Positions 18,336 through 31,730 of a stretch of 64,000 bases of DNA are shown one piece after another. The DNA comes from Brevibacillus brevis. GTDB taxonomy: Bacteria; Bacillota; Bacilli; Brevibacillales; Brevibacillaceae. Each line of letters starts with the position of its first letter. Position 1 is the stretch's first letter. The notes beneath the pieces were generated by a model. It was not told where the DNA came from, ran no database searches, and saw nothing but the letters and a program-made list of their open reading frames with translations. The DNA lies in contig NZ_CP134050.1 of assembly GCF_031583145.1 (NCBI RefSeq), positions 5,011,501-5,075,500 on the forward strand, read 5' to 3'. The position numbers and the translations under genes are program-made.

Positions 18336-18527
18336 GCTTCTGCCCTCATTTTTCTATGAAAATAGGAAATCGCTCCTATCATGTATTACCCTGATCTGTC
18401 CTCGGTAAAACGGCGGGCCGGTATCCGCTCCATCTTACCCGTTGCTTTCCTGTCCAAAAAACTGATATATCTAGTAAGAGAAGAGACAAAAGGAATCTTG
18501 CAGGTCCGAGAAGGAGATCAGCCCGCT

Positions 18528-19286
18528 ATGAAAATGGTATCGTGGAACGTAAACGGATTGAGAGCTTGTATGAATAAAGGATTTGCGGAGTACTTTTCCA
18601 AAGTGGATGCAGACATCTTCTGTATCCAGGAGACGAAGCTGCAAGAAGGACAGATCACCGTGGATTTTGCCGACGGTTACCATTCGTTTTGGAATTACGC
18701 AGAGAAAAAAGGCTATTCCGGGACGGCGGTCTTCACCAGGCACGAGCCCGTCTCCGTGCGCTATGGACTGGAAGAAGATCAGGAGCCGGAGGGGCGCATC
18801 CTGACGCTGGAATACGATTCGTTCTTCCTGGTCAATGTCTATACCCCCAATGCCAAACGGGATCTTTCGCGACTCGATTACAGAATGGAATGGGAAGACC
18901 GATTCCGCAGCTATTTGTTGCAGCTGGACGAGAAGAAACCGGTGATTGTCTGCGGAGATCTCAATGTCGCTCATCAGGAAATCGACATCCGGAATGCCAA
19001 ATCCAATCGCGGAAATTCCGGCTTTACCGATGAAGAGCGCGCCAAGATGAGCCAATTGCTCCAGTCCGGTTTCCTCGATACATTCCGGCATTTTTATCCC
19101 GATCGGACAGATGCCTATACCTGGTGGTCCTATATGCCCAAGGTCAGGGAGCGCAATATCGGCTGGAGGATTGATTACTTTCTCGCCTCGGCCAGACTGG
19201 CCCCTTCTTTGACGGACGCCCGCATCGATGCCGAAGTGACCGGCAGCGACCATTGCCCGATCATCCTGGAATTGACGGATTTGTAG
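18528..19286 (+). CDS. exoA: Exodeoxyribonuclease III (AP endonuclease family)
   Basis: A 252-residue Mg-dependent DNA repair nuclease acting at abasic sites, the same length as B. subtilis ExoA. Active-site residues are present: N8 (SWNVNG), E35 (IQETKL), the Tyr in VNVYTPNA, D/N in CGDLNVAH and the D-H pair in GSDHCPI. The frame is open from 18381, but the ATG at 18528 has AAGGAGAT nine bases before it and starts the conserved MKMVSWNVNG. Confidence 0.95.
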   Translation: MKMVSWNVNGLRACMNKGFAEYFSKVDADIFCIQETKLQEGQITVDFADGYHSFWNYAEKKGYSGTAVFTRHEPVSVRYGLEEDQEPEGRILTLEYDSFFLVNVYTPNAKRDLSRLDYRMEWEDRFRSYLLQLDEKKPVIVCGDLNVAHQEIDIRNAKSNRGNSGFTDEERAKMSQLLQSGFLDTFRHFYPDRTDAYTWWSYMPKVRERNIGWRIDYFLASARLAPSLTDARIDAEVTGSDHCPIILELTDL

Positions 19287-19341
19287 CGCACTCGCCTGTC
19301 CTGTGTGACGGCATAAATGAACATGAAATGATTCGCGCATC

Positions 19342-19390
19342 AAAAAAGACAAGGTACCCGCCACGCACTGTGGCGAACCTTGTCTTTTTT
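19342..19390. terminator. Bidirectional terminator between exoA and the Pel-like operon end
   Basis: AAAAAAGACAAGGT (19342-19355) pairs with ACCTTGTCTTTTTT (19377-19390), with an inner CGCCAC/GTGGCG stem. It serves the convergent exoA and DUF4956 genes. Confidence 0.9.
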
Positions 19391-19411: not shown

Positions 19412-20092
19412 TTACTGTGCATAATCCCCGTTGTAGCTGACGAGCGCGACATCCTTCACGCCTTCCAAGGCGGAAAACTCGCCCACAAACGCCGTATTGT
19501 CGTCGCGTATGCGCAGCTCGACCGTCAATTCGGTAATGTCTGCCCGTACAGACTTCGATTTCAGCGTACCGTTCATTTTCCGTACACGCCGTTTCACTTC
19601 TTCCTCTGCCGCCGCTTCGTAATGCACGATCAGCAAATAGGGAGCGGTTGCTTCTCGCCGCCGCGTCAGCCACCAAATGGTCGCGCCGACTACGAGGGAA
19701 CCGATGATTGCCACCGAATAGATTTTCGCTCCCGACGCGATGCCCGCCGATACCGCCCAAAACATGTACATGATATCCATCGGATCTTTGACAGCCGTAC
19801 GGAACCGGACGATGCTGAGCGCCCCGACCATCCCGAGCGAGAGCACGATATTGGTGCTGATGGTCATGATGATCAGGGCTGTGATGATGGTCATCAGCAC
19901 AAACGTCATATTGTAATTATGGCTGAAAACGACGCCGCGGTAGCATTTTTGATAGACGTAATAGATGAACATTCCGATCAAAAAGGCGACCAGCAAACTC
20001 AATAGCAGATCGACCAAAGACACGCCCTCGAACGCATCCATCTTCAGCACACTTTTTTTAAACATGTCTTTAAAATTTAGCAAATTATCCAT
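19412..20092 (-). CDS. DUF4956 membrane protein, end of the Pel-like operon
   Basis: A protein of about 226 residues with three or four membrane helices in the first 150 residues and a soluble C-terminal alpha/beta part of about 75. The family hallmark SLGMVGALSIVRFRTAVKDP follows the second helix group. The start at 20092 follows GGAGAGTGAG; a GTG at 20110 has no site. DUF4956 proteins are often next to VTC and CotH proteins, as here. Function is unknown. It is probably the membrane partner of the VTC protein encoded 60 bases upstream. Confidence 0.8.
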   Translation of the reverse strand: MDNLLNFKDMFKKSVLKMDAFEGVSLVDLLLSLLVAFLIGMFIYYVYQKCYRGVVFSHNYNMTFVLMTIITALIIMTISTNIVLSLGMVGALSIVRFRTAVKDPMDIMYMFWAVSAGIASGAKIYSVAIIGSLVVGATIWWLTRRREATAPYLLIVHYEAAAEEEVKRRVRKMNGTLKSKSVRADITELTVELRIRDDNTAFVGEFSALEGVKDVALVSYNGDYAQ

Positions 20093-20152
20093 GACACACT
20101 CACTCTCCACCCGTTTGCTTTCGGAAATGCTGCTGTTTCTATGGACGAACCG

Positions 20153-20860
20153 TCATCTGGTGTAAATTTTTTGTCGTTCCTTGCACAATACATATTTGGA
20201 TATCGTGGAACGCTGATGGGCAGTCATTTGCAGCAAGGAACGAATCATATGGGGCAAAAACTGCCTGAATTTCACTTCCAGAATGAGGCGCGGCCCTTCA
20301 ATCGCCTCCCAGGTCTGCAAATCACGATCAAACAAAAGGGCAGAGTGGAATCCCGCCGCCAGCCGCTTGTCAAACGTAATACGCGTATCGCTCATCTCAT
20401 CGATGTACGCTTCCCGGATATAGTCGACACTCACGGACGGTTTGAGCGCGTTCTGCTTCCAGTCCCGGTAGAAATCGGCAAGCAGCGGATGGTCTTCCCC
20501 TCGCAGCCATTCCGCATCGCCGCTCAGGAGCCGGTCTGTTTGCTGCCGCGTCAAGCTGGCTGCCTCCTTGAGGACGTATTCGTTCCATTTGCTTTTTCTC
20601 TCCAGCTTGATGATGCCGTCGCTTAGGTTGTAAATGCGAATCCGGTATTTTTTCCGCTGATACACCCCATTGTTTTTGTCATACAGCGCCGTTTCCGATA
20701 GGTTGTCGAAATACAGGCTGCGAATGTGATAGCCTTCGTCGCTTACAGAATGGCGGTCAAGCGACATCAACGTCCGAAGCCGGTTGCGTGTCGCAATGTA
20801 ATCTTGCGGGTTGATATAATATTTTTGCTCATGGCGCAGCTTTTTTCCGTTCACGTGCAT
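20153..20860 (-). CDS. VTC-domain (polyphosphate polymerase-like) protein
   Basis: A 235-residue soluble protein of the VTC/CYTH-like tunnel fold. The N-terminal RHEQKYYI strand, SLYFDN, the basic KKYRIRIYN (R-x-R) and KLERKSK motifs, and the late ILEVKFRQFLP with an acidic and a basic residue are the nucleotide- and phosphate-binding signature of VTC4-type polymerases. It starts at the ATG at 20860, 22 bases after the CotH stop. In bacteria these proteins are linked with CotH and DUF4956. The substrate is not known. Confidence 0.85.
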   Translation of the reverse strand: MHVNGKKLRHEQKYYINPQDYIATRNRLRTLMSLDRHSVSDEGYHIRSLYFDNLSETALYDKNNGVYQRKKYRIRIYNLSDGIIKLERKSKWNEYVLKEAASLTRQQTDRLLSGDAEWLRGEDHPLLADFYRDWKQNALKPSVSVDYIREAYIDEMSDTRITFDKRLAAGFHSALLFDRDLQTWEAIEGPRLILEVKFRQFLPHMIRSLLQMTAHQRSTISKYVLCKERQKIYTR

Positions 20861-20882: not shown

Positions 20883-22628
20883 TCAATCGATATAGAACTC
20901 GCGCATACCATGGTACACATTTCCGTCTTCGTCATAGTAATCGTCAAATGCCGTCATTTCGTGTCCTTTGGCATCCGTAACCGTCACGCGCCAAAAGAAT
21001 CGCCCTTTTCCAAATTCATCAAGGGAAATCGACGTTTCCTTCAATCCCTTCTTGTCATAGAGCGGATGGGCAAACGACGGTTCCTTGGCGATTTGCACAT
21101 GATAGGTCAATTCGTCGCCTTGGAGGTCATACGACGTGCCCCAGTGAAACACAAGCTTCCCATTTTCCTTCCTCACTTGATCTAAGTAAAACGGCATGGG
21201 AACCTGCAAGCTTTCCTGGAACTTCCGCTCGTTTTCTACCGGCAGCTGAATGATCCGTTCCAGCTCTTTGTCATAGTCGGCCAACGGACCGGGCAAATAG
21301 CGAATGTCCGGCTCGCGCGACACGTATGAGTAGACAATGGGCTTGTACTTCTCGATCATGCTCCTGCTTTGCTCCGGATTGATGATCGCGCTCAGTTCCC
21401 GTACCTTTGCTACCAGCTGCTCGACGTTTCGCGGATTTTTGAAGAACCGGTTTTGCAGCTCGCTCCCCCAGTAGTTGTGAATGCCCCGCATCCACGGCGA
21501 ACGCCGTCCGTGATCCTGCATGGGCGATTCAAAGAAGCCCCAGGCCCCGTCGTAATCCCACGGAAGGAAAAACCACTTCTCCGAATTGAGCGGCGAATAC
21601 AGCAAGAAGTTTTGCGAGTTCGTGTCGATATTGTCCATCAGGATGTTAACGGCCATCCAAGTCAAGAAGTTGTCCCTGTCGAAATGTTGCTCGAACACTT
21701 CGTCAAAATCCTTCGACAGGTCGTTCACGTCGTCCAGCATGCGCAAAAGCTTCGAGTGATCGTCCCATCCCTTGCTTTCCAGTACCGTTTCAAACATGGC
21801 TTTGTCAAAAGCCGGATCATCCTTTGTTTTCAGCTTGTCAGGGTATCGGAAGAATTCGAAGTTTGACGCCTTGTACAAGTTGCCGTACCGGTCGAGGCCA
21901 TGCATGCGCAAAAACGACTTGTTCGGCTGCTCGATTTGGGTATACAACCCGTAATCTTCAAAAGCGGCATTGGCGTTCGCATTCGGAGCCGTCAAATCTT
22001 TGACATGCAAATGCACAAATTGGGTCCGCAAGCTGGTCATGTGCGGAATCATTTTCATATAATCAAAGCTGAGTTTATTCCGCAAACGGGTGAAATCGTA
22101 GGAGTGCTTGATCAAATTGATCGTCCGCTGGTCCAGCCAGTAGCCGGCGTTCTCAAACAGCTCGATTTTGTAAGCCTTCTGCGGAGCCTTGAGCGTCGAT
22201 TTACCGCGAATCTTGATCGAGGCGTTGGGATGCGACTCCTCGTACCCGAACAGTCCGTTCTCGGGTCCTTGTTCCGTTCCTTCCTGAATGATCACGTTCA
22301 TCTTCCGGGAATCGTTGTTTTCTGTCGCATTGGTGATCCGGTTTAATTCCGCCCATGTCATCGGTTTCTCCGCGGTCACATTGTCTCTGGTGATGGTCAT
22401 ATACAGGTGGACAACGGTGTCAGGCTTGTCTTGTTCGTAAACGAGCCGGTTTTCGACCAGTTTGGGCGAATAGTCGGTTGCTTCCGCAGGCGCCGGCGCG
22501 GCACCCTTGGCGTCTGGGCCGCGTTCCCCCGCCGGTCGTGCCACGTCAGTAGGTGCACATCCCGTCGCAGCTGTGACAACGACCGACATCAAAAGCGCCA
22601 CAAAGGCATTCTTCGATAGAAATTTCAT
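20883..22628 (-). CDS. CotH kinase family lipoprotein
   Basis: A 581-residue exported protein. The start is the ATG at 22628 after AGGAGGAAGAAG; the much longer frame (to 22925) runs into pelG and is rejected. The signal peptide ends in a lipobox-like VTAATGC. The CotH kinase fold shows KIRGKSTLKAPQKAYKIEL (ATP-binding Lys), YTQIEQPNKSFL, DNIDTNSQNFLLY and the metal-binding PWDYDGAWG. A C-terminal beta-sandwich follows, with a Fibronectin-III-like look (YHVQIAKEP). CotH enzymes phosphorylate proteins outside the cytoplasm. Here the target may be a surface protein or the polysaccharide machinery. Confidence 0.87.
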   Translation of the reverse strand: MKFLSKNAFVALLMSVVVTAATGCAPTDVARPAGERGPDAKGAAPAPAEATDYSPKLVENRLVYEQDKPDTVVHLYMTITRDNVTAEKPMTWAELNRITNATENNDSRKMNVIIQEGTEQGPENGLFGYEESHPNASIKIRGKSTLKAPQKAYKIELFENAGYWLDQRTINLIKHSYDFTRLRNKLSFDYMKMIPHMTSLRTQFVHLHVKDLTAPNANANAAFEDYGLYTQIEQPNKSFLRMHGLDRYGNLYKASNFEFFRYPDKLKTKDDPAFDKAMFETVLESKGWDDHSKLLRMLDDVNDLSKDFDEVFEQHFDRDNFLTWMAVNILMDNIDTNSQNFLLYSPLNSEKWFFLPWDYDGAWGFFESPMQDHGRRSPWMRGIHNYWGSELQNRFFKNPRNVEQLVAKVRELSAIINPEQSRSMIEKYKPIVYSYVSREPDIRYLPGPLADYDKELERIIQLPVENERKFQESLQVPMPFYLDQVRKENGKLVFHWGTSYDLQGDELTYHVQIAKEPSFAHPLYDKKGLKETSISLDEFGKGRFFWRVTVTDAKGHEMTAFDDYYDEDGNVYHGMREFYID

Positions 22629-22683: not shown

Positions 22684-24099
22684 TCATGCTTCCGCTTTTT
22701 CGGGCATGCCGCGCTCGCTGGCAGACAGCGGCTGCGCGCTGAACGTGGCGTAATGCAGGCGGCGCATGCGGTAAACCAGTCTGGACAATGCCGCGACCAA
22801 CGTGAGAATCGAGGCTGCAAACAACGGCAATCCTTGGTACTGCACATCCCGCAGCAGCCAGGAGCAAACGAGATTCGCCGCCAGCAGCAGCGCCGAAAGA
22901 GCGAGCGCTCCCTTCCGATCGTCAAAGTAGAGCAGCAGCAGCAAGACGATACTGGTCATGATGTATACGAAGAAAGCCATGACCAAGATGTTGAAGGTGT
23001 CCACCATCTGCGAAGTGAACCCGATGAGCGGCAAAAACTGAATTCCTGCAGCAATCGCGATCAGTGAAAACACCAACTGAATGCCCATCAGCATCGCCAT
23101 CTCGCCGATCAGGACTTTTTCCATTTCTTTGCGAGCCACATCGATGTCCAGAATGGTCCCCCCTCCGATGACGGAATCGTAATACTGACGGAATTTGGGG
23201 TAAAAGGCCGTCTCGACGGAAATCACAAACCAGATCAGGGAGGGCAGCACCGACAGTACCGCATAAAAAACCGCTACATCGTACTCCGGCGAAATCCGGA
23301 ACGTATCCTCCAGCCACATCCCGTTCCACATCCATTGGGCAAACTGGTGCTCATACATCGAGAGGCCCGTAAACAGCCCGATAAACCAAAGCGACTGATA
23401 ACGTTTGGCATCCTTTCGGAAAGAAAACGGAATAGCAGGCTTCTCTGTCCGAAAAAATCGTTCGATTTCGGACAGAAGCAGGCAGGCCGTCACAAAAAAT
23501 CCGCCCGCCATTCCCCATAGCAGCCCGGAAGCGGACACGGCTTGTCCGCTTCCATACAGCAATATCCAGATTCCCAGCACGGCAACGCCCATGCCGCCTG
23601 CAAATGCCACGGCGACCTTTCGATACGCTTTCATGGCGGATACATACACCACTTCCATCCAGATCACAACCAGCTCCATGTACAGGACAAACAAAGGGAT
23701 CTTTTCCGCAAGCCCAAGCGGCGTGAACAAAGCGAACAAAAAAGCGGGCACGAAGGCAACAGCCAACGTGATCTGCATGCAGCTGTAGAAAGACGGCAGC
23801 AGGGCATCGTAGCGCTTTTCGTACAATTGATCCGAAACGGAACGGGTAACATACATCGCAAACGGCGAAGTAATAATGAAGGAAAAAGCAAACGCATAGG
23901 AAACGCCCGCCTGAAAAATCTCGCGGGGATGGAATGGCGCGTTTGTCTGGACAAGCAGCCAATGAATGACCGTTACCGCAAGCATGCAGCTCAGCATCGG
24001 GCCAACGGTCACAAATGACGCGTAGGAAATCGCCTGAATGCGGCCAGCCAGACCTTCCCTGTCAAACAGTCGCTTCAATTGAAAGCCAATACCGGCCAT
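22684..24099 (-). CDS. pelG: PelG-like exopolysaccharide transporter (MOP/Wzx superfamily)
   Basis: A polytopic membrane protein of 471 residues with about 12 helices. The N-terminus MAGIGFQLKRLF and the early SYASFVTVGPML block are characteristic of PelG, the membrane transport/synthase subunit of Pel. The start ATG at 24099 overlaps the pelF stop (TAATG), so the two are translated together; a longer frame to 24150 is less likely. It is encoded between pelF and the CotH gene. It probably carries the nascent polymer across the membrane with PelD, PelE and PelF. Confidence 0.85.
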   Translation of the reverse strand: MAGIGFQLKRLFDREGLAGRIQAISYASFVTVGPMLSCMLAVTVIHWLLVQTNAPFHPREIFQAGVSYAFAFSFIITSPFAMYVTRSVSDQLYEKRYDALLPSFYSCMQITLAVAFVPAFLFALFTPLGLAEKIPLFVLYMELVVIWMEVVYVSAMKAYRKVAVAFAGGMGVAVLGIWILLYGSGQAVSASGLLWGMAGGFFVTACLLLSEIERFFRTEKPAIPFSFRKDAKRYQSLWFIGLFTGLSMYEHQFAQWMWNGMWLEDTFRISPEYDVAVFYAVLSVLPSLIWFVISVETAFYPKFRQYYDSVIGGGTILDIDVARKEMEKVLIGEMAMLMGIQLVFSLIAIAAGIQFLPLIGFTSQMVDTFNILVMAFFVYIMTSIVLLLLLYFDDRKGALALSALLLAANLVCSWLLRDVQYQGLPLFAASILTLVAALSRLVYRMRRLHYATFSAQPLSASERGMPEKAEA

Positions 24100-25532
24100 T
24101 ATTCTCTCGCCCCCTCCCGCAATAACGATTGGTACATGGAGTCGTACCAATGGATAAACTGTTCGTGCGTGTACCCTTTCAGGACACGCTGAAACCCGAT
24201 TTGCCCCATCTCTTTTCGCTTGCCTTCATTTTTGCAGAGCGTAATAATGGCACGTGCGATCTCCTTGTCGTCCAGAACGGGGGCGATCAAACCGGCTTGT
24301 CCATCCACACCATCCGCTTCGTTTCCGTGCAGCAGTTCCCGGCAGCTTCCGACGTCGGTGGCGACCACCGGCTTGCCTGCTGCCATCGCTTCCAGCACGG
24401 CAAGCGGCTGGCCTTCGCTGATGCTGGTCAGCACGATGACGTCCATCCGCCCGATGTACTGTTTGACGTCGACGCTGCCCGTGAATGTCAGGTCTTCCAC
24501 CCCCAGCATGTCGACGAGCTCCAGGCATTCCCGATAATACTCGGGATCCTCATCGTATGGCCCCATGATTGTAAATGTGGCGTTCGGCACTTCGCGCTTT
24601 ACCGCGTAAAAACTGTGGATCATCGTCTTAATGTCTTTGATGGGTACCACTCTGACAATGGCGCCGATGTGGATCGAGCCGTCATCCGGCTTTTTTCCGG
24701 GGAGATCGACATATTCGGGCGCTTTGATCCCGTTTGGCACGATGGCGATTTTGGATGCGGGGCAGCCGAGCTCCATCTGAATTTCCTTGTTTCGATGAAA
24801 CAAGGTGACCACCTGATCTGCGCTCTCATACGCGCAATTGGCCAAACCGTAGAAATAGCGGATCCACAGATCTTTGAAATACCCTTTTACCCAATCCGCC
24901 TTGATTATTTCCTCTTCCCGCTCGCGCGAATAGATGCCATGCTCCGTGAGCAGCATCGGCTTTTGATACAGATACTTGCCGAGGCTGGCAATGACGCCGG
25001 CGTATCCCGTAGAAACCGAGTGATAGACATCCGCCTCCGGCAGCGTTTCACGGACGAGCTGCATGAACGGCAGGATCATCGAGCGCACGGTCCAAAACAT
25101 TTCCCGAAACGGCAAGTGATCATATTGTTCTCTGCACAATTCGCTCAGGAGATCGAAATAATCGCGGCTCATCAAAAATTCCGTCGACGTCTCCCAGCGG
25201 TTGTCTCGCATCAGACGGAACAAGGTGTTCCAATCCATATCGTTCTTTCCTGACAGAAGTGACTTCAACGCGTCTCTCTCACCCTTGGCGAGCGAGAAGG
25301 AGCGGCCCCATCGACTTTCCTCCAGCAGAAAAGCGTCGAGGAACACCTCCCTGACCTCCCCGACATTGGCTGGAATCTCGTACCGAAACTTCCCCCTCGA
25401 TTTCTCCTCAGCCCCGATGGCGAAAATCGTGAATTCGTGGTGCGGCATCGATTGAATCAACGCATGGATCCAACTGGAGACGCCACCGGTCACGTATGGA
25501 TAAGATCCTTCCGCAACAATGCAAATCCTCAT
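24099..25532 (-). CDS. pelF: PelF-like glycosyltransferase (GT4)
   Basis: A 477-residue cytoplasmic GT-B glycosyltransferase, the predicted polymerase of Pel. The N-terminal CIVAEGSYPYVTGGVSSW and the C-terminal EGQPLAVLE (EX7E) with GKPVVATDVG are typical of PelF. A DUF3492 N-terminal region fits the long segment before TEHGIYSRERE. Its ATG overlaps the stop of the deacetylase gene by four bases, and its stop overlaps pelG. Donor in Pel systems is UDP-GalNAc/GlcNAc, matching the epimerase at the head of the operon. Confidence 0.9.
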   Translation of the reverse strand: MRICIVAEGSYPYVTGGVSSWIHALIQSMPHHEFTIFAIGAEEKSRGKFRYEIPANVGEVREVFLDAFLLEESRWGRSFSLAKGERDALKSLLSGKNDMDWNTLFRLMRDNRWETSTEFLMSRDYFDLLSELCREQYDHLPFREMFWTVRSMILPFMQLVRETLPEADVYHSVSTGYAGVIASLGKYLYQKPMLLTEHGIYSREREEEIIKADWVKGYFKDLWIRYFYGLANCAYESADQVVTLFHRNKEIQMELGCPASKIAIVPNGIKAPEYVDLPGKKPDDGSIHIGAIVRVVPIKDIKTMIHSFYAVKREVPNATFTIMGPYDEDPEYYRECLELVDMLGVEDLTFTGSVDVKQYIGRMDVIVLTSISEGQPLAVLEAMAAGKPVVATDVGSCRELLHGNEADGVDGQAGLIAPVLDDKEIARAIITLCKNEGKRKEMGQIGFQRVLKGYTHEQFIHWYDSMYQSLLREGARE

Positions 25533-27370
25533 TTTTTCTCAGTCCATTCAATCGTGAAAGTTTCTTTCTCCGCCCGGACCAGATAGACCCCGTCGTCTAT
25601 CTTGCGAACGTCGCAGTTTTCCGTCCGCGCGATCCGCTTGTCGGTTCGCAGCATAAAATACAGATCCCCCGTAAACCTGTTTACGTAGCCTTTCAATGCT
25701 TCTTCACGATGCTCGATTACCGGCTCGCTGATCAGGATCTTCTCTGCTTCCGCACTGGCTTCCGAGGCCGTCATGCTGCGGAGCCAGCTGTGGCGTTCTT
25801 TGACGAGCTTCAGATAATCCTCAAAATCTTTGTAGAGCTCTTTCCAGCTCGCATCCTGGCTTCGATTGTGGTCCAGCACGTCATCAGGATGGATGAAGTG
25901 TGAAAAAATACCTGACGATGTCACGGCATTCGCCATCATCCATTTTTCGTATTCGCCGATTCGATACCCATAGGTCACCCGCGGCAGCTCCACGATCCCG
26001 TCCTGAGCGAGTTCGTATTCCTGGACATACGAAAGCCCCCGTCCGTCTTCTCCATACAAGGATGATACGTTCTGCAGATCGGGCAGCACCTGCCGAAGCA
26101 CTTGGCGCCCGTCTTCCCCCAATGCGTTCGACGGCGGAACGTAGGTACGCAACGGATAGTTCGGGAAAACCGTATGCACATATTGCTTGACTGCTTCCAA
26201 GGATTGAACCATGTCCCCGGTTCCTGTCCAGGATTTGTAGCCGAACATATGGGAAACCCGCTTATCGATGGTCAGGGATTGGTGATTATACCCGTGAACC
26301 GCGATCTCCCCGCCGTTTTTCAACAATTCCCTTCCAAAGATCAGCAAATCTTCCGGTTCCGCCTCACGCTTCCAATCAAATGGAGCCGTCACACGGTTGT
26401 TGTAAGTGGCGATGAGCGCCCCCGTGTACTTGAGGTCGTAGTTCCTGGCCAGACGAATCATATCCGGCCACCAAACCCTTTTGATAAACTGGGGAACATC
26501 GAGCTGGTAATCCCGAAAGATCGCTGGATTGGTTCCCTTTCGGATCGGTGCCGGAAAATCGTCGAGGTACATGACTTTAGCATTCATGACGGGATACATG
26601 AAGTCGGGAAGCAGGACCGCGATCCCTCCCGCCAGAAGGCCCCGACTCGCTTTCTCCTGCAGCATCGTTCCGTTGAAAACAAGAAAAGCGCCTTTTTCGT
26701 ACGGGGTCTTCCACATGAGCGGAATTCCGTTCCCTGCGGTTGCCTGGATGAGGGCGCGGTCGTCGAGCTTCACGTGCATCACCGTGTTTTGCAGACTGTC
26801 ATCCTTGAACGAGACATTCGCGTACCCCGGCAGCACATTCGTTTCAAACGTGATCCCGTGCGTATCGACATAGTTGCCGATTTCAAGTATCCCCAGCTTG
26901 CGGTACAGGTTGTAGAACGAGTCGTTCGTATCCGAGACGGCGGACAAAAACACGTTTCCCCCTTCAGCCACATACCGTTCGAGAGGTTCAATCCCCCCAA
27001 GAAGGGACAGATCAGGCAGCGCCACAATCACTGCGTCGGGTTTTTCCGCCCAAGGCACCGCTTTTCCGATCTCGATGCTTTCATATGATTTTTTCATCCC
27101 CTTCAGCACCTGTTCGGCATTTTGCTTTATCTTCGCGCTGAATGGATTGTGCGGATCGAAGACAATGACCAGTCTCTCCGGACGTATTTTTTCCTTTTCT
27201 TCAGGGGAAAGCGCGTTTGTTGCAGGCAATTCAGACGGCTTATGAAAAGACTGGGCGCTTTTGTCCCAGCGAAACACCAGCTCTGAGCGTGAAACCTGCA
27301 GCAAGGCGGTTAACAAGCAAACAAACAGCAGGAACGCCCCGATTCGTTTGAGCGATTTTGACTCTTTCAT
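25529..27370 (-). CDS. DUF2194 protein, PelA deacetylase-like
   Basis: A 613-residue exported protein with an N-terminal signal anchor (about residues 8-25). Residues 60-250 look like a Rossmann-like or glutaminase-amidotransferase-like fold (VIVALPDLSLLGG). From about 260 on, a polysaccharide-deacetylase-type barrel carries D270/D271 in MYLDDFPAP and the H-x3-H metal ligands H359 and H363 in AVHGYNHQS. This fits the stand-alone deacetylase part of PelA in Gram-positive Pel loci. The protein would partly deacetylate the exported polymer. It starts three bases after the PelE-like gene and overlaps pelF by four. Confidence 0.82.
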   Translation of the reverse strand: MKESKSLKRIGAFLLFVCLLTALLQVSRSELVFRWDKSAQSFHKPSELPATNALSPEEKEKIRPERLVIVFDPHNPFSAKIKQNAEQVLKGMKKSYESIEIGKAVPWAEKPDAVIVALPDLSLLGGIEPLERYVAEGGNVFLSAVSDTNDSFYNLYRKLGILEIGNYVDTHGITFETNVLPGYANVSFKDDSLQNTVMHVKLDDRALIQATAGNGIPLMWKTPYEKGAFLVFNGTMLQEKASRGLLAGGIAVLLPDFMYPVMNAKVMYLDDFPAPIRKGTNPAIFRDYQLDVPQFIKRVWWPDMIRLARNYDLKYTGALIATYNNRVTAPFDWKREAEPEDLLIFGRELLKNGGEIAVHGYNHQSLTIDKRVSHMFGYKSWTGTGDMVQSLEAVKQYVHTVFPNYPLRTYVPPSNALGEDGRQVLRQVLPDLQNVSSLYGEDGRGLSYVQEYELAQDGIVELPRVTYGYRIGEYEKWMMANAVTSSGIFSHFIHPDDVLDHNRSQDASWKELYKDFEDYLKLVKERHSWLRSMTASEASAEAEKILISEPVIEHREEALKGYVNRFTGDLYFMLRTDKRIARTENCDVRKIDDGVYLVRAEKETFTIEWTEKK

Positions 27371-27373
27371 CTC

Positions 27374-28258
27374 CTAAACTCCCTGATTCCAGTATCGAAT
27401 GAGCTGCAACGTTCGAGGCGATACCTTTACGGTCGATCGCTTCAAGCTTTCGAGAACCTCATTGAATTTCGTCCCCGCTCTCAGCGTATAGTACAGCTTC
27501 ATCGCCATATAAAAAGCCATTTCCGATTGGGGATTCTCTTGAATGAAGCGCTTGCTTGCCTCTTCGGCTTTTTCGTATCGGCCCAGCCTGATTTCGCAGT
27601 CAATTTTGTCGATAAAAACCTCTTCCATGCAGTTGTCCTGGGCAATCAAGCGCTCAAGCACGTCCGCCTGCAGAAGGGAATACGTCCTTTCTGTTTCCGG
27701 GTCAAACAAGCCATTTTCGATCGATTGTTTTACGATTTCCGCGTATCGCTGAAGGACATGGATATCATCCGGCTTCTGTTCGGCTGCCACCGCTGCGCGC
27801 TGCAATTCGGCCATCATTTGACGCTTTAGCTCCAGCATCGCTGTCACGGCGTAATGGGACGTTTCGCTGTCCTCGTTCCGCACTGCCTTGGCGAGAAAGG
27901 AAGCCAAATCAAGCGAATTGTCTTTGAGCATGTCCAGCACTATGCGCCGGCGGGTGCGAAAGTCGTTCAACAGGAGCGCTTCCTCGATCGGCACGATCGA
28001 CGTTTCCTTCTGCAAATCTACCTTGTCAAAAAAACCGCTCCGATCCTTTTGCAGATCGACTACTAGTTCAAAGCGGCGCGTATCCTCCAAGGCCGCCTGA
28101 GACCTCCTCCACTCTGCGACAAGCGCGAGCGGCAGACCGGCAAACGGTACGAAGCAGACGATTGCCGCCAGACCATTCTTTGCCTCTCGATGGCGGAGGG
28201 AATACAAGACGTACACTACAGCCAGCACATAATATGCGACCAACAGCCATTTACCCAT
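27374..28258 (-). CDS. PelE-like TPR membrane protein
   Basis: A 294-residue protein with two N-terminal membrane helices (about residues 4-21 and 29-47). A helical C-terminal region shows TPR-like pairs (EVFIDKIDCEIRLGRYEKAEEASKRF in outline). PelE of Pseudomonas has the same plan: two helices and TPRs that hold the synthase complex together. Sequence similarity alone would be weak, and the call leans on position between the PelD-like fusion (8-base overlap, ATGGGTAA) and the deacetylase. Confidence 0.7.
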   Translation of the reverse strand: MGKWLLVAYYVLAVVYVLYSLRHREAKNGLAAIVCFVPFAGLPLALVAEWRRSQAALEDTRRFELVVDLQKDRSGFFDKVDLQKETSIVPIEEALLLNDFRTRRRIVLDMLKDNSLDLASFLAKAVRNEDSETSHYAVTAMLELKRQMMAELQRAAVAAEQKPDDIHVLQRYAEIVKQSIENGLFDPETERTYSLLQADVLERLIAQDNCMEEVFIDKIDCEIRLGRYEKAEEASKRFIQENPQSEMAFYMAMKLYYTLRAGTKFNEVLESLKRSTVKVSPRTLQLIRYWNQGV

Positions 28259-30428
28259 AGATCGCTTCCTCGCTTACGAGCCTGGTGGCGAAACCGTTTT
28301 TCGCAAGCCGCTCCATTGCCGTATGTGCTTCACCCGGTCTGGAGTTGGAAAGGAGCAGCAGCATCTTGCCGTCGCATACCCCGAGGTAGTCGGTGTCTCG
28401 GAGCAGCCGGGAAATGCGTTGACCCGTCTTTTTCAGATCCTGGCCTCCCAGGTCGACGGACAGGAGCGTAAACTCGGAATCAAACCTCTCCTTCGCCGCC
28501 AATTTACTGCGCAGGACCTCCTGGAACGCTGCTTCCTGCAGAATCGGCGTATCGTCGACATATCGTTTGCTTCGCGTCGCATCTGTAAAGGTCAGGGCAC
28601 GAGAAAACGAACTGGAGATCAGGTCGACGGAAATTTTGAACAAATTTTCGTGGTACAAGGAAAAACGCTCAAAATCTTGATCGTACACGCAGACAAGAGC
28701 CATCGTCTCGCCTTGGAACACAACCGGCGCCGCAAGAAGCGGCAGTTCCGGGGAAAGTGCCTTGTTGACCCACATTCGGTTTGTCGTGACGACATCCGCC
28801 AGCTCCGGCACGTCAGCAAGGCGGATAGACCGCGGCAGTTTCCACTCGCCGTCGTTCGATTGCAAAAGGAGGCGCAAGTAGCCTGTCGAAGAGACGGAAT
28901 AGATGGAGATCCTCCGTGTTTCCATCAAATCTTCCAAAACCTTGACAGCAGCTCCCGCAACCTGTTCGGGCTCCAGCGTTTCCAGTTCGCTCACGATGGA
29001 ATGGATGCGGCCCAAGCTGTCCTTCGTAGTCAAAACCTGACGCTGCAATGCGTCCTTTACTCTGCGGGTGTCTTTATGTATCTCAGTGAGCAGGCGGTAG
29101 CGCTGTTGTTCGACATCCAGCTCGTTTTTGGCAAATGACAGCTTTTTATTCTTCCTGTCTGTGACAAACCCGACGGCGAGCCCAAAAAACAGGTAGACCG
29201 CCACAAGCAGCAGCGATTCGGGATCGTACAGGAGAGAAGCCCAATCTCGCCCGTTATAGACCACACTGTCAGCGACAACCATACCGATTACAGCTGCGGA
29301 AGCCAGAAGCGACTGGCGTGTCCCGTACAATAACCCCATCAGCAAAATGTAAATCAGTCTGAAATCGAATTGCTGATGAAAGAACAGGTTGTCGGGCCGC
29401 GAAAACAGGAACACCACGGCGAAAGCCAGCACATTCTCGACATACGGACGCACGGAAGCGATCCATTTCGGTTTTGCCGGGGCCTGCACCTCATTGCCGA
29501 CGGTCGTCGCGGCAGCTTCCTGCTGGAGCATCCATTGATATGTTCGGAACAACCCTTCCTGCAGCGAGTACAAGGGGAGCCAATCGAAATCGCGCTTGAT
29601 TTTGCTGTTGTCCAAGCTCGATCGGATGATTTCGCCCGGGCGGCTCTCCAAGTGCAGGACGTCCGGGACGGATGCGAATGTCCGTATCAATGCAATCAGC
29701 TCATTTACGCTCGTCTCGTGCGCAGTGGACAGATTGTAGACGCCGGTTGCGCTGTTCATGGACCCCCGGAAGATCGCGTCCGCGACATCCTCAACGTAGA
29801 TGAAGTCCCGCGTTTGCCCCCCGTCGCCAAACACAGTCAGCTGCTTCCCGTCGCGAACATGCTTGAGGAAGATGGAAATGACGCCCCCTTCCCCTTCGCT
29901 TCCCTGCCGCGGGCCATACACGTTGGAAAATCGCAGGCAAAGCGTGTCGAGATTGTACATCTCTTTCCACTTTTCGCAATACTGCTCACCCAGCCGTTTA
30001 TTGATTCCGTACGGCGACATCGGAGAGCAAGCGACTTCTTCCGCAATCGGAACGTCCGCTTGTTCTCCATACACCGCCGCTGAAGAGGCGAAAATGAATT
30101 TTTTCACGCCGTACCGCGCCGACAATTCCAGCATGTTTACCAGCCCGAGAACATTGGTGTGCGTGTCCGTATAAGGCTGCTGAATGGAAGCGGCGACGCT
30201 GGTCTGCGCTGCCAGATGGACGACGATATCGAATCCGGCGCTGCGAAACACTTCCTCGCACGCTTTGTCCTCCACGTTGAGTTGATAGAATTTATGCGGG
30301 ACGGACACGTTTCCCTTTCTCCCTGTCGACTGATTGTCGATAATGCATATGTTATGGCCTTCTTTGTAATATCGTTCGACCAAAGCTGAGCCGATGAATC
30401 CATATCCCCCTGTGATCAGGACGTTCAC
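28251..30428 (-). CDS. UDP-sugar 4-epimerase fused to a PelD-like c-di-GMP receptor
   Basis: A 725-residue two-part protein. Residues 1-300 are an extended SDR epimerase: GGYGFIG (G7, G10, G13), the catalytic Y140-x3-K144 and S115/S116. Residues 325-425 form a cluster of about four membrane helices, then a coiled coil, a GAF-like domain (about 480-610) and a degenerate GGDEF domain. That last domain keeps the inhibitory-site RDTD (677-680), while the GGDEF loop has become CDGKM (685-689), as in PelD, which binds c-di-GMP but makes none. The GTG at 30428 after GGTGGAGGG is the likely start. It is the first gene of the operon and couples precursor supply (GlcNAc/GalNAc epimerisation, as PelX) to the receptor. 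Confidence 0.82.
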   Translation of the reverse strand: MNVLITGGYGFIGSALVERYYKEGHNICIIDNQSTGRKGNVSVPHKFYQLNVEDKACEEVFRSAGFDIVVHLAAQTSVAASIQQPYTDTHTNVLGLVNMLELSARYGVKKFIFASSAAVYGEQADVPIAEEVACSPMSPYGINKRLGEQYCEKWKEMYNLDTLCLRFSNVYGPRQGSEGEGGVISIFLKHVRDGKQLTVFGDGGQTRDFIYVEDVADAIFRGSMNSATGVYNLSTAHETSVNELIALIRTFASVPDVLHLESRPGEIIRSSLDNSKIKRDFDWLPLYSLQEGLFRTYQWMLQQEAAATTVGNEVQAPAKPKWIASVRPYVENVLAFAVVFLFSRPDNLFFHQQFDFRLIYILLMGLLYGTRQSLLASAAVIGMVVADSVVYNGRDWASLLYDPESLLLVAVYLFFGLAVGFVTDRKNKKLSFAKNELDVEQQRYRLLTEIHKDTRRVKDALQRQVLTTKDSLGRIHSIVSELETLEPEQVAGAAVKVLEDLMETRRISIYSVSSTGYLRLLLQSNDGEWKLPRSIRLADVPELADVVTTNRMWVNKALSPELPLLAAPVVFQGETMALVCVYDQDFERFSLYHENLFKISVDLISSSFSRALTFTDATRSKRYVDDTPILQEAAFQEVLRSKLAAKERFDSEFTLLSVDLGGQDLKKTGQRISRLLRDTDYLGVCDGKMLLLLSNSRPGEAHTAMERLAKNGFATRLVSEEAIYG

Positions 30429-30489
30429 CTGATATCCCTCCACCGATATTTCTAGTACTTTTTCTCTACTACTTTCGCACTACGGAACA

Positions 30490-30518: not shown

Positions 30519-30587
30519 CATTTTTCACAAAATCTTGTTTTGTAGGTAATTTTTAGATAAAACTTCTCCATGAGCTTTTCCTTGTCG

Positions 30588-30616
30588 TTGAACTCCTGTT
30601 TTTTTTCGAATATACT
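30588..30616 (+). promoter_or_regulatory. Promoter of the GH114 glycosidase gene
   Basis: TTGAAC (30588-30593) and TATACT (30611-30616) are 17 bases apart. It reads away from the Pel-like operon promoter 70 bases to the left. Confidence 0.65.
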
Positions 30617-30704
30617 CACTATAATAAATTCCGAAAGCAGGGATGCTCTCTTTACCTTCCCCCATCACAAACAGGAACGCTGCCCGACTAGAGGAGGTTA
30701 TGCC

Positions 30705-31730
30705 ATGAAATACAGACGTCTATGTATGTTCTTGCTGTTATTCGCTTGCTTTTTCACTCTGGTACTCCCCGCCGGCGCGGCCAATTCCAGCAACTCAAAA
30801 GGATACAGGCTGCTCATTTACTACGGAATTCCGGCCGGGGTAAACGAGGTATGGGACGACACAAAAGCAGCCGAAGTCTTCGCCGAATACGATGTCTTGG
30901 TGTTTGGTGCCGGTTTGGAAGAAGAAAAGCATTCGTATCACGATTCAACCGCCGAGATCTTTCGTCTGATCCGGGAAAAGAATCCGGATGCCCGACTGTT
31001 CGGGTATGTCGACCTCGGCGTTACCACCTCCAACTTTTCACCTGCAGCCATGGAATCCAAGGCGAAAAAGTGGAAGGCTCTCGGGGCCAATGGCATTTTC
31101 CTTGACGATGCCGGATACGACTACGGTGTCTCGCGCGCCCGGCTGAATCAAACGGTAAACGCCGTGCATCGCTTGGGCATGTCCGTTTTTGTGAACGCAT
31201 GGAATCCGGACGATGTCATGGGCAGCAAGGTGGATCGCAAATACAATCCGAAGGGCCAAGCGAGCGCTCTCGACAAACGGGACATCTATTTGCTGGAGGA
31301 TTTCTTGCAGCCGACCGACATCACGAAGAAAAGCAGCCCCAGCGTGTTCAATTCCGCGTTTCGGGGAAAAATGGACAAATCGCTTGCTTACCGAAAAAAA
31401 CTGGGCGTCAAGCTCATGTCCGTCAGCATCATCGATTACGCGAAGTACTCGGAAAATGCAGTCCGCAAGTTCTTTCGCATGAACGAAGCCACGGCGGCCG
31501 TTTTTTCGCTGGATGCCTATGGGATCGCCCCGACGCACTACTCCTCCGAACGTCCGAACAAACACAAGGTGCGCTCCTTCCCGTACATTCTCAATTACAT
31601 GTCATACTATTCGACTAATGTCGAGTATGTCTCCAAGTACGGAAACAGGGACTTCTCCCGAGGAGGATTCCGCATCCACTCGCTGCCTGGTGAGCATTAC
31701 TACAACTATCCCGCCGATGCAAAGTCCTAG
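30705..31730 (+). CDS. Secreted GH114-type endo-alpha-1,4-polygalactosaminidase (PelA hydrolase-like)
   Basis: A 341-residue secreted glycosidase. A signal peptide (about 1-25, ending PAGAA) is followed by a TIM barrel with the GH114 motifs YVDLG (101-105) and GIFLDDAGYDYG, carrying acidic residues D134, D135 and D139. Length equals a single-domain hydrolase. The ATG at 30705 has GAGGAGG seven bases before it. The enzyme would cut partly deacetylated GalNAc polymers, the role of the PelA hydrolase domain, and it is transcribed divergently from the Pel-like operon. It may limit or remodel the polymer. Confidence 0.85.
   Translation: MKYRRLCMFLLLFACFFTLVLPAGAANSSNSKGYRLLIYYGIPAGVNEVWDDTKAAEVFAEYDVLVFGAGLEEEKHSYHDSTAEIFRLIREKNPDARLFGYVDLGVTTSNFSPAAMESKAKKWKALGANGIFLDDAGYDYGVSRARLNQTVNAVHRLGMSVFVNAWNPDDVMGSKVDRKYNPKGQASALDKRDIYLLEDFLQPTDITKKSSPSVFNSAFRGKMDKSLAYRKKLGVKLMSVSIIDYAKYSENAVRKFFRMNEATAAVFSLDAYGIAPTHYSSERPNKHKVRSFPYILNYMSYYSTNVEYVSKYGNRDFSRGGFRIHSLPGEHYYNYPADAKS

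Follow-up and report, generated by a model that had tools for sequence, protein, structure and literature searches.

The gene described here lies in a 64,000-nucleotide stretch of Brevibacillus brevis DNA (contig NZ_CP134050.1, positions 5,011,501 to 5,075,500; hereafter the window) and encodes, in one reading frame, a UDP-sugar 4-epimerase of the short-chain dehydrogenase/reductase (SDR) type joined to PelD; it is the first gene of a pel operon. We assign the product to the extended, SDR-bearing PelDs of Gram-positive bacteria, and we consider it probable that the epimerase supplies UDP-N-acetylgalactosamine (UDP-GalNAc) beside the glycosyltransferase PelF and that cyclic di-GMP (c-di-GMP), bound at an RxxD motif, switches the synthase. 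An earlier note on this DNA stated that the two parts are separate proteins in known Pel systems. That statement was wrong, as all Brevibacillus PelDs identified by Whitfield et al. (2020, PLoS Pathog, PMC7112168; cited throughout from the available part of its text) have an N-terminal SDR domain that may be a functional epimerase. The SDR-PelD fusion has thus been known in Brevibacillus since 2020, and the window gene is an ordinary member of its class. Compared by description, not by sequence, the two show no difference in what that text gives: the genus is the same, the SDR domain is N-terminal, and cofactor and catalytic residues fit a functional epimerase.

The fusion gene is a single open frame that ends with a stop codon at 28251 to 28253. 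The first start codon of the frame is a GTG at 30443, but the better start is the GTG at 30428, because GGAGG lies 8 nucleotides ahead of it (30441 to 30437), and the coordinates given in the earlier note therefore hold. Its description of a one-frame epimerase-PelD gene at the head of a Gram-positive Pel-like operon was borne out by the frame, the start, the domain matches, and the adjoining pelF and pelG genes, both of which match their families strongly. The note had proposed a check for a frameshift or two separate proteins and a survey of domain order in Brevibacillus and Paenibacillus. One frame was found here, and the survey recovered the same order in 68 distinct proteins (84 rows before duplicate removal), the window's included. 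With so many genomes sharing the SDR-PelD order in a single frame, it is practically inconceivable that an error of sequencing or assembly has run two genes together here; nothing at this locus supports that idea, and among the relatives one, L171, looks frameshifted. A frameshift or two separate proteins as the origin of the fusion was rejected, since the survey shows the one-frame order repeatedly. At L171 (L171:7866-10131, Cohnella xylanilytica), SDR and PelD lie in overlapping frames, by their look the outcome of one frameshift or of a split that happened recently.

The N-terminal part gave a strong match to the Pfam Epimerase family PF01370 over residues 3 to 222 (214.6 bits; cut-off, 20.9), with the cofactor motif GGYGFIG at residues 7 to 13. 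Alignment against part of Escherichia coli K-12 GalE (residues 86 to 338) paired GalE S124, Y149, K153, and N179 with S116, Y140, K144, and N169 of the fusion, and GalE Y299, the gatekeeper position, with S270. Pfam, this alignment, and the PDB matches all agree with the SDR 4-epimerase having GGYGFIG and Y140-x3-K144 that had been proposed earlier. The domain thus has the fold and the catalytic Ser/Thr-Tyr-Lys of an extended-SDR UDP-sugar 4-epimerase, with cofactor and catalytic residues intact as in the Brevibacillus type. With the GalE equivalog TIGR01179 the fusion scored 176.8 bits, below the curated cut-off of 262.3, indicating a relative of GalE and not GalE proper. A PDB sequence search with the SDR part returned 4zrm first and 6wjb second. 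The latter, a UDP-N-acetylglucosamine (UDP-GlcNAc) C4-epimerase from Pseudomonas protegens, which we take to be the Pel-linked enzyme PelX, superposed on the SDR part with a Z score of 41.3 over 298 residues at 37% identity; it shares the fold and the catalytic set of the fusion SDR, but it is a free-standing protein.

The C-terminal half we regard as settled to be PelD by its profile kinship, by structure comparison with Foldseek, and by its RxxD motif and distal arginine. A profile of the fused PelD parts matched the short PelD at every one of the 22 unfused pel loci (110 to 149 bits), over most of its length. As a control, the 21-row PelD profile was run against the window's own genome at E≤10, and the fusion was its sole match (570.2 bits) despite 12 GGDEF matches in that genome, so the profile is not a general detector of GAF or GGDEF domains. 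In a Foldseek search of the PDB with a model of residues 321 to 725 (45 aligned sequences; mean predicted local distance difference test score [pLDDT], 84.1), rows 1 to 7 were Pseudomonas aeruginosa PelD chains, with E values of 4.9e-8 to 4.2e-7 over about 280 columns. The template modelling scores (TM-scores) of these rows were low, 0.27 to 0.30 by query, with root mean square deviations of about 16 to 17 Å, which we take to reflect domains set at another angle in the model. R677, D680, and R707 were invariant across 49 aligned fusions; the c-di-GMP binding residues of Bacillus cereus PelD are R363, D366, and R395 (PMC7112168). The refuting case named in the earlier note, a C-terminal half closer to an unrelated GAF/GGDEF sensor than to PelD, did not arise. 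The AlphaFold model built for the full-length fusion (mean pLDDT, 88.6; predicted TM-score, 0.50) has a weak linker at residues 314 to 319 and does not fix how the SDR and PelD parts are placed. It has helices at 321 to 342, 356 to 368, 370 to 392, and 403 onward, followed by GAF-like and GGDEF-like folds, so that model, profile, and Foldseek together uphold the membrane helices, GAF, and degenerate GGDEF of the earlier description. One chain therefore carries all parts of an extended SDR-bearing PelD: SDR, membrane helices, GAF, and degenerate GGDEF.

Sequence families detect this half poorly. The Pfam GAF match of the window protein is below threshold (18.2 versus 22.4 bits), and GAF was matched at E≤1 in 17 of 21 aligned members, the window's among them. 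PelD_GGDEF (PF16963) was absent from the Pfam library matches of the window protein and the aligned members, and a PDB sequence search with a profile of the 21 PelD parts returned no PelD, its matches being weak and to all appearance unrelated. The PelD of B. cereus likewise escapes sequence-based detection (PMC7112168). Two structure results weigh against PelD: a diguanylate cyclase follows at Foldseek row 8 (4.4e-7) and phytochromes from 5.8e-7, a thin margin after PelD, and the best 50 VIA-align matches by Z score are nearly all GAF-bearing sensors, PelD not being listed among them. We nonetheless rejected an unrelated GAF/GGDEF sensor as the identity of this half; the profile control separates the two by much, Foldseek alone by little.

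Conservation was read from the 68 distinct proteins, three of which are incomplete: L092 lacks the N terminus, L119 is what a deletion has left, and L171N covers the first half of a gene that probably carries a frameshift. Tyr140 and Lys144 are retained in 65 of the 68, and the gatekeeper is Ser in 63, with L, P, A, Q, and Y once each in the remainder. RxxD is complete in 66, the exceptions being L119 and L171N. The three proteins that have lost both Tyr and Lys are Exiguobacterium fusions (L099, L101, and L110, whose sequences, where compared, are identical to those of the named loci L168, L166, and L175); they retain the SDR domain and its cofactor motif, GGYGF(I/L)G. One Exiguobacterium genome (G092) holds an unfused pel operon, L077, in addition to the fused L110.

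To place the fusion among pel operons, matches to the PelF family NF038011 were sought in 398 genomes belonging to the class, and 65 of them gave one over the cut-off; Clostridia and Actinobacteria lie outside this survey. All 51 places above 320 bits, the window included, were examined, and 17 places at 139 to 187 bits were left out. The 51 comprised 28 SDR-PelD fusions, 22 short PelDs, and L088, whose 588-residue protein has an N-terminal part, ahead of PelD, missed by the SDR profile. Genes for CotH, VTC, and DUF4956 proteins accompany 27 of the 28 fusions (L103 is the exception); within at most about 9 kilobases on either side, family profiles included, none was found at L088 or at any of the 22 short-PelD loci. 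In a PelF tree of 92 rows, made by a quick method with a midpoint root and with long branches flagged, the operon types separate with a support of 94 on either side in the Shimodaira-Hasegawa-like approximate likelihood ratio test. The tree thus makes the fusion and its CotH-VTC-DUF4956 genes one ancestral association and not 27 independent ones, and on such sequence evidence the fusion is the mark of one operon lineage. A separate SDR gene lies in the retrieved region of 1 of the 28 fused loci versus 7 of the 22 unfused ones, a difference that replacement of such a gene by the fusion would predict. The single fused case by the threshold used is L097:3089-4054, directly before the fused pelD.

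Of 26 Brevibacillus genomes, 14, that of the window among them, have the fusion with a true PelF, and one more (G008) has a remnant. In that remnant (L119:7653-12694), the SDR domain and the membrane part of PelD are still present, together with an entire CotH and with VTC and DUF4956 frames that are shorter; the stretch from the end of pelD through pelE, pelA, and pelF and well into pelG, of which much is missing, seems to have been lost in a large deletion. A second scan compared named genomes with the PelD-part alignment; it was seeded with fused PelDs, so unfused loci are not countable in it. It gave 56 loci, 54 of them fused, with L159 cut by a contig end and L171 as described above, in Brevibacillus, Paenibacillus, Cohnella, Ureibacillus, Sporosarcina, Chryseomicrobium, Domibacillus, Exiguobacterium, Bacillus, and other genera. 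All three accessory genes were present in 49 of the 54, and of the other 5, 4 are short or break off shortly beyond pelG or CotH, while the fifth, L121, matches L103. L103 and L121 are fused-PelD operons that have no CotH, VTC, or DUF4956 gene within the retrieved stretch.

We judge the likeliest role of the SDR domain, as read from its residues and relatives, to be the supply of UDP-GalNAc in place. Held by the PelD anchor, the domain would face the cytoplasm next to the polymerase PelF, where it would turn UDP-GlcNAc into UDP-GalNAc, and c-di-GMP bound at the RxxD of the GGDEF part would turn the synthase on, by analogy to the PelDs of B. cereus and P. aeruginosa, for which c-di-GMP switching has been reported (PMC7112168). 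The fusion would in this way couple substrate supply to a synthase that c-di-GMP probably controls; the epimerase itself may also come under that control, as the earlier note proposed. The fusion lends itself to a test of substrate channelling in exopolysaccharide synthesis, and the high proportion of intact active sites (65 of 68) makes an assay worthwhile. Several observations weigh against this proposal. The Exiguobacterium fusions keep the SDR domain after losing Tyr and Lys, and Streptococcus thermophilus JIM8232, in which the SDR domain is absent, still forms a pel-dependent biofilm (PMC7112168). The seven unfused loci with a separate SDR gene all come from one family. The window's genome also holds a free UDP-sugar epimerase relative, 40% identical to the fused domain (L002:1480-2460, at about 4.40 megabases), and the fused epimerase therefore need not be the sole source. 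The solved structure closest to the SDR part is 4zrn, titled a UDP-glucose 4-epimerase (Z score, 44.3); it outranks the UDP-GlcNAc enzymes, and its gatekeeper is likewise Ser by our reading of the alignment. The genes next to the free epimerase, named by reading only, are UDP-glucose-dehydrogenase-like and sugar-transferase-like.

The losses in Exiguobacterium could mean that the SDR domain serves PelD chiefly in structure or sensing, as a dimerizer or a sensor of nucleotide-sugar or NAD, with catalysis secondary or lost. The retained cofactor motif in these three distinct proteins fits such a module, as do the N-terminal part of the L088 PelD that escapes the SDR profile and the degenerate domains reported in streptococci, clostridia, and actinobacteria (PMC7112168) and in Streptococcus intermedius (mBio 2025, PMC12345266, also cited from the part of the text available). 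Retention of Tyr and Lys in nearly all fusions is hard to explain without catalysis, however, and we hold this account to be possible but rather unlikely. A structural role in addition to catalysis is probable, because some lineages retain the domain without its catalytic residues. The 4zrn match raises another explanation, an active epimerase for a different sugar, for example, UDP-glucose/UDP-galactose, in an operon whose polymer is not Pel, and the CotH, VTC, and DUF4956 genes, absent from the short-PelD loci, would suit it. A small residue at the position of GalE Y299 presumably lets in N-acetyl sugars, and the title of 1lrk fits that view. The predominance of Ser there speaks against a different sugar, although it is not specific: 4zrn carries Ser too, so the residue is no proof of substrate, and Ser270 is only suggestive of UDP-GlcNAc/UDP-GalNAc use by the fusion. 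The strong PelF and PelG matches also contradict a polymer other than Pel, as does the S. intermedius operon, which likewise has a CotH-type gene and makes a GalNAc-rich Pel-like polymer (PMC12345266). We consider a different sugar very unlikely, and UDP-GalNAc supply to PelF remains our preferred role for the domain.

Among described systems, the class IV PelD of S. intermedius resembles the window's in having an N-terminal SDR-type domain and CotH-type and further accessory genes, but its SDR is called degenerate and its GGDEF is missing (PMC12345266). The PelD of B. cereus ATCC 10987 has the same membrane region, GAF, and degenerate GGDEF, in the order pelDEA(DA)FG, but no SDR domain; a separate, divergent GalE gene is present instead (PMC7112168). 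The extended PelD has been tied to CotH, polyphosphate polymerase, and DUF4956 genes in streptococci and clostridia, and in the available text such genes are not described for the B. cereus locus (PMC7112168). Three points go beyond these descriptions, though all may stand in the figures of Whitfield et al.: Paenibacillaceae and further groups have fusions with intact sites, Exiguobacterium has lost the site, and Brevibacillus has the CotH-VTC-DUF4956 genes.

The features of the window locus, and examples of a second fusion discussed below, are collected in Table 1.

Table 1. Features of the fused pelD operon in the window and examples of PelG-CotH fusions at other loci
Feature	Position	Strand	Basis
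pelD fusion gene (SDR 4-epimerase + PelD), 725 amino acids	28251..30428	-	Frame, domain, model, and profile evidence
GGAGG, likely ribosome-binding site, 8 nucleotides before GTG start	30437..30441	-	Read from sequence
SDR epimerase domain, residues 1-305; S116, Y140, K144, N169, gatekeeper S270	29514..30428	-	Pfam, PDB matches, alignment
Membrane region, about four helices, residues 321-430	29139..29468	-	Model, hydrophobicity
GAF domain, about residues 471-620	28569..29018	-	Alignment search, model, structure comparison
Degenerate GGDEF domain, about residues 632-725	28254..28535	-	Model, Foldseek
RxxD I-site, R677-D680; distal Arg R707	28389..28400	-	Invariant in 49 aligned fusions
pelE-like gene, weak tetratricopeptide repeat, 294 amino acids; 8-nucleotide overlap with pelD end	27374..28258	-	Search; operon position as in other loci
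pelA deacetylase-type gene (DUF2194; weak polysaccharide deacetylase match)	25529..27370	-	Pfam
pelF glycosyltransferase	24099..25532	-	NF038011, 391.9 bits (cut-off 100)
pelG exporter	22684..24150 (first start codon)	-	PF16933, 408.7 bits (cut-off 29)
CotH-type kinase, lipoprotein-like signal	20883..22628	-	PF08757
VTC-domain protein	20153..20860	-	PF09359
DUF4956 protein	19412..20110	-	PF16316
Divergent, probably secreted protein	30705..31730	+	Weak Spherulin4 match, E 0.002, below cut-off
PelG-CotH fusion examples	L094:10365-13478, L126:14359-17475, L156:14362-17481		Hydrophobic, lipobox-like segment between parts

Three starts in the table need comment. The Pfam match to PelG begins at residue 18, and the true pelG start may be later. 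The listed CotH frame runs from 22925, and its start is probably the ATG at 22628, with AGGAGG upstream. The divergent gene is listed from 30570, and the ATG at 30705 is preceded by AGGAGG. Its product is possibly an enzyme of the PelA-hydrolase type, to judge from sequence and place: pelAH in bacilli has been described at this position (PMC7112168), and a PDB search with 30570 to 31730 gave no match. After the DUF4956 gene, a 297-residue frame on the minus strand (18471 to 19364) has no Pfam match at E≤0.01.

A second fusion appeared in the accessory part of these operons. At 42 loci, PelG and CotH share one frame of 1,030 to 1,183 amino acids. The 38 distinct proteins come from Paenibacillus, Cohnella, Ureibacillus, Sporosarcina, and some Brevibacillus, and their rows fall in one part of the PelF tree, consistent with one or two origins. 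We found no report of a PelG-CotH fusion in the open-access literature; in the available text of Whitfield et al. (PMC7112168), "fused" is used once, for a His tag, and "fusion" is absent. A match to a loose lipobox pattern lies between the two parts in all 38 proteins, in at least two of them (L151 and L169) at an unconvincing site. In 13 of the 38, an ATG in frame occurs at a distance of 45 to 10 codons ahead of the lipobox, and in 2 a Shine-Dalgarno-like 4-mer precedes any start codon there. With so few candidates in this crude scan, an internal restart behind the PelG-CotH frames was considered unlikely. A fusion with an internal lipoprotein-type signal would tie the otherwise unexplained CotH-VTC-DUF4956 genes directly to the exporter. 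One could picture the machine of this pel lineage as tied to an enzyme at both ends, a scheme that we put forward as doubtful: PelD would bring the UDP-GalNAc supply on the inside, and PelG, in Paenibacillus and relatives by fusion through the internal lipobox-like signal, would bring a CotH kinase to the surface to work on the emerging polymer or its neighbors, giving a phosphorylated or otherwise modified Pel. Separate CotH proteins have the lipobox pattern in 15 of 31 cases, the window's match being at a spurious upstream place. The CotH of the window is the separate-lipoprotein form, not fused to PelG, and has a signal ending in ATGC after the likely start at 22628.

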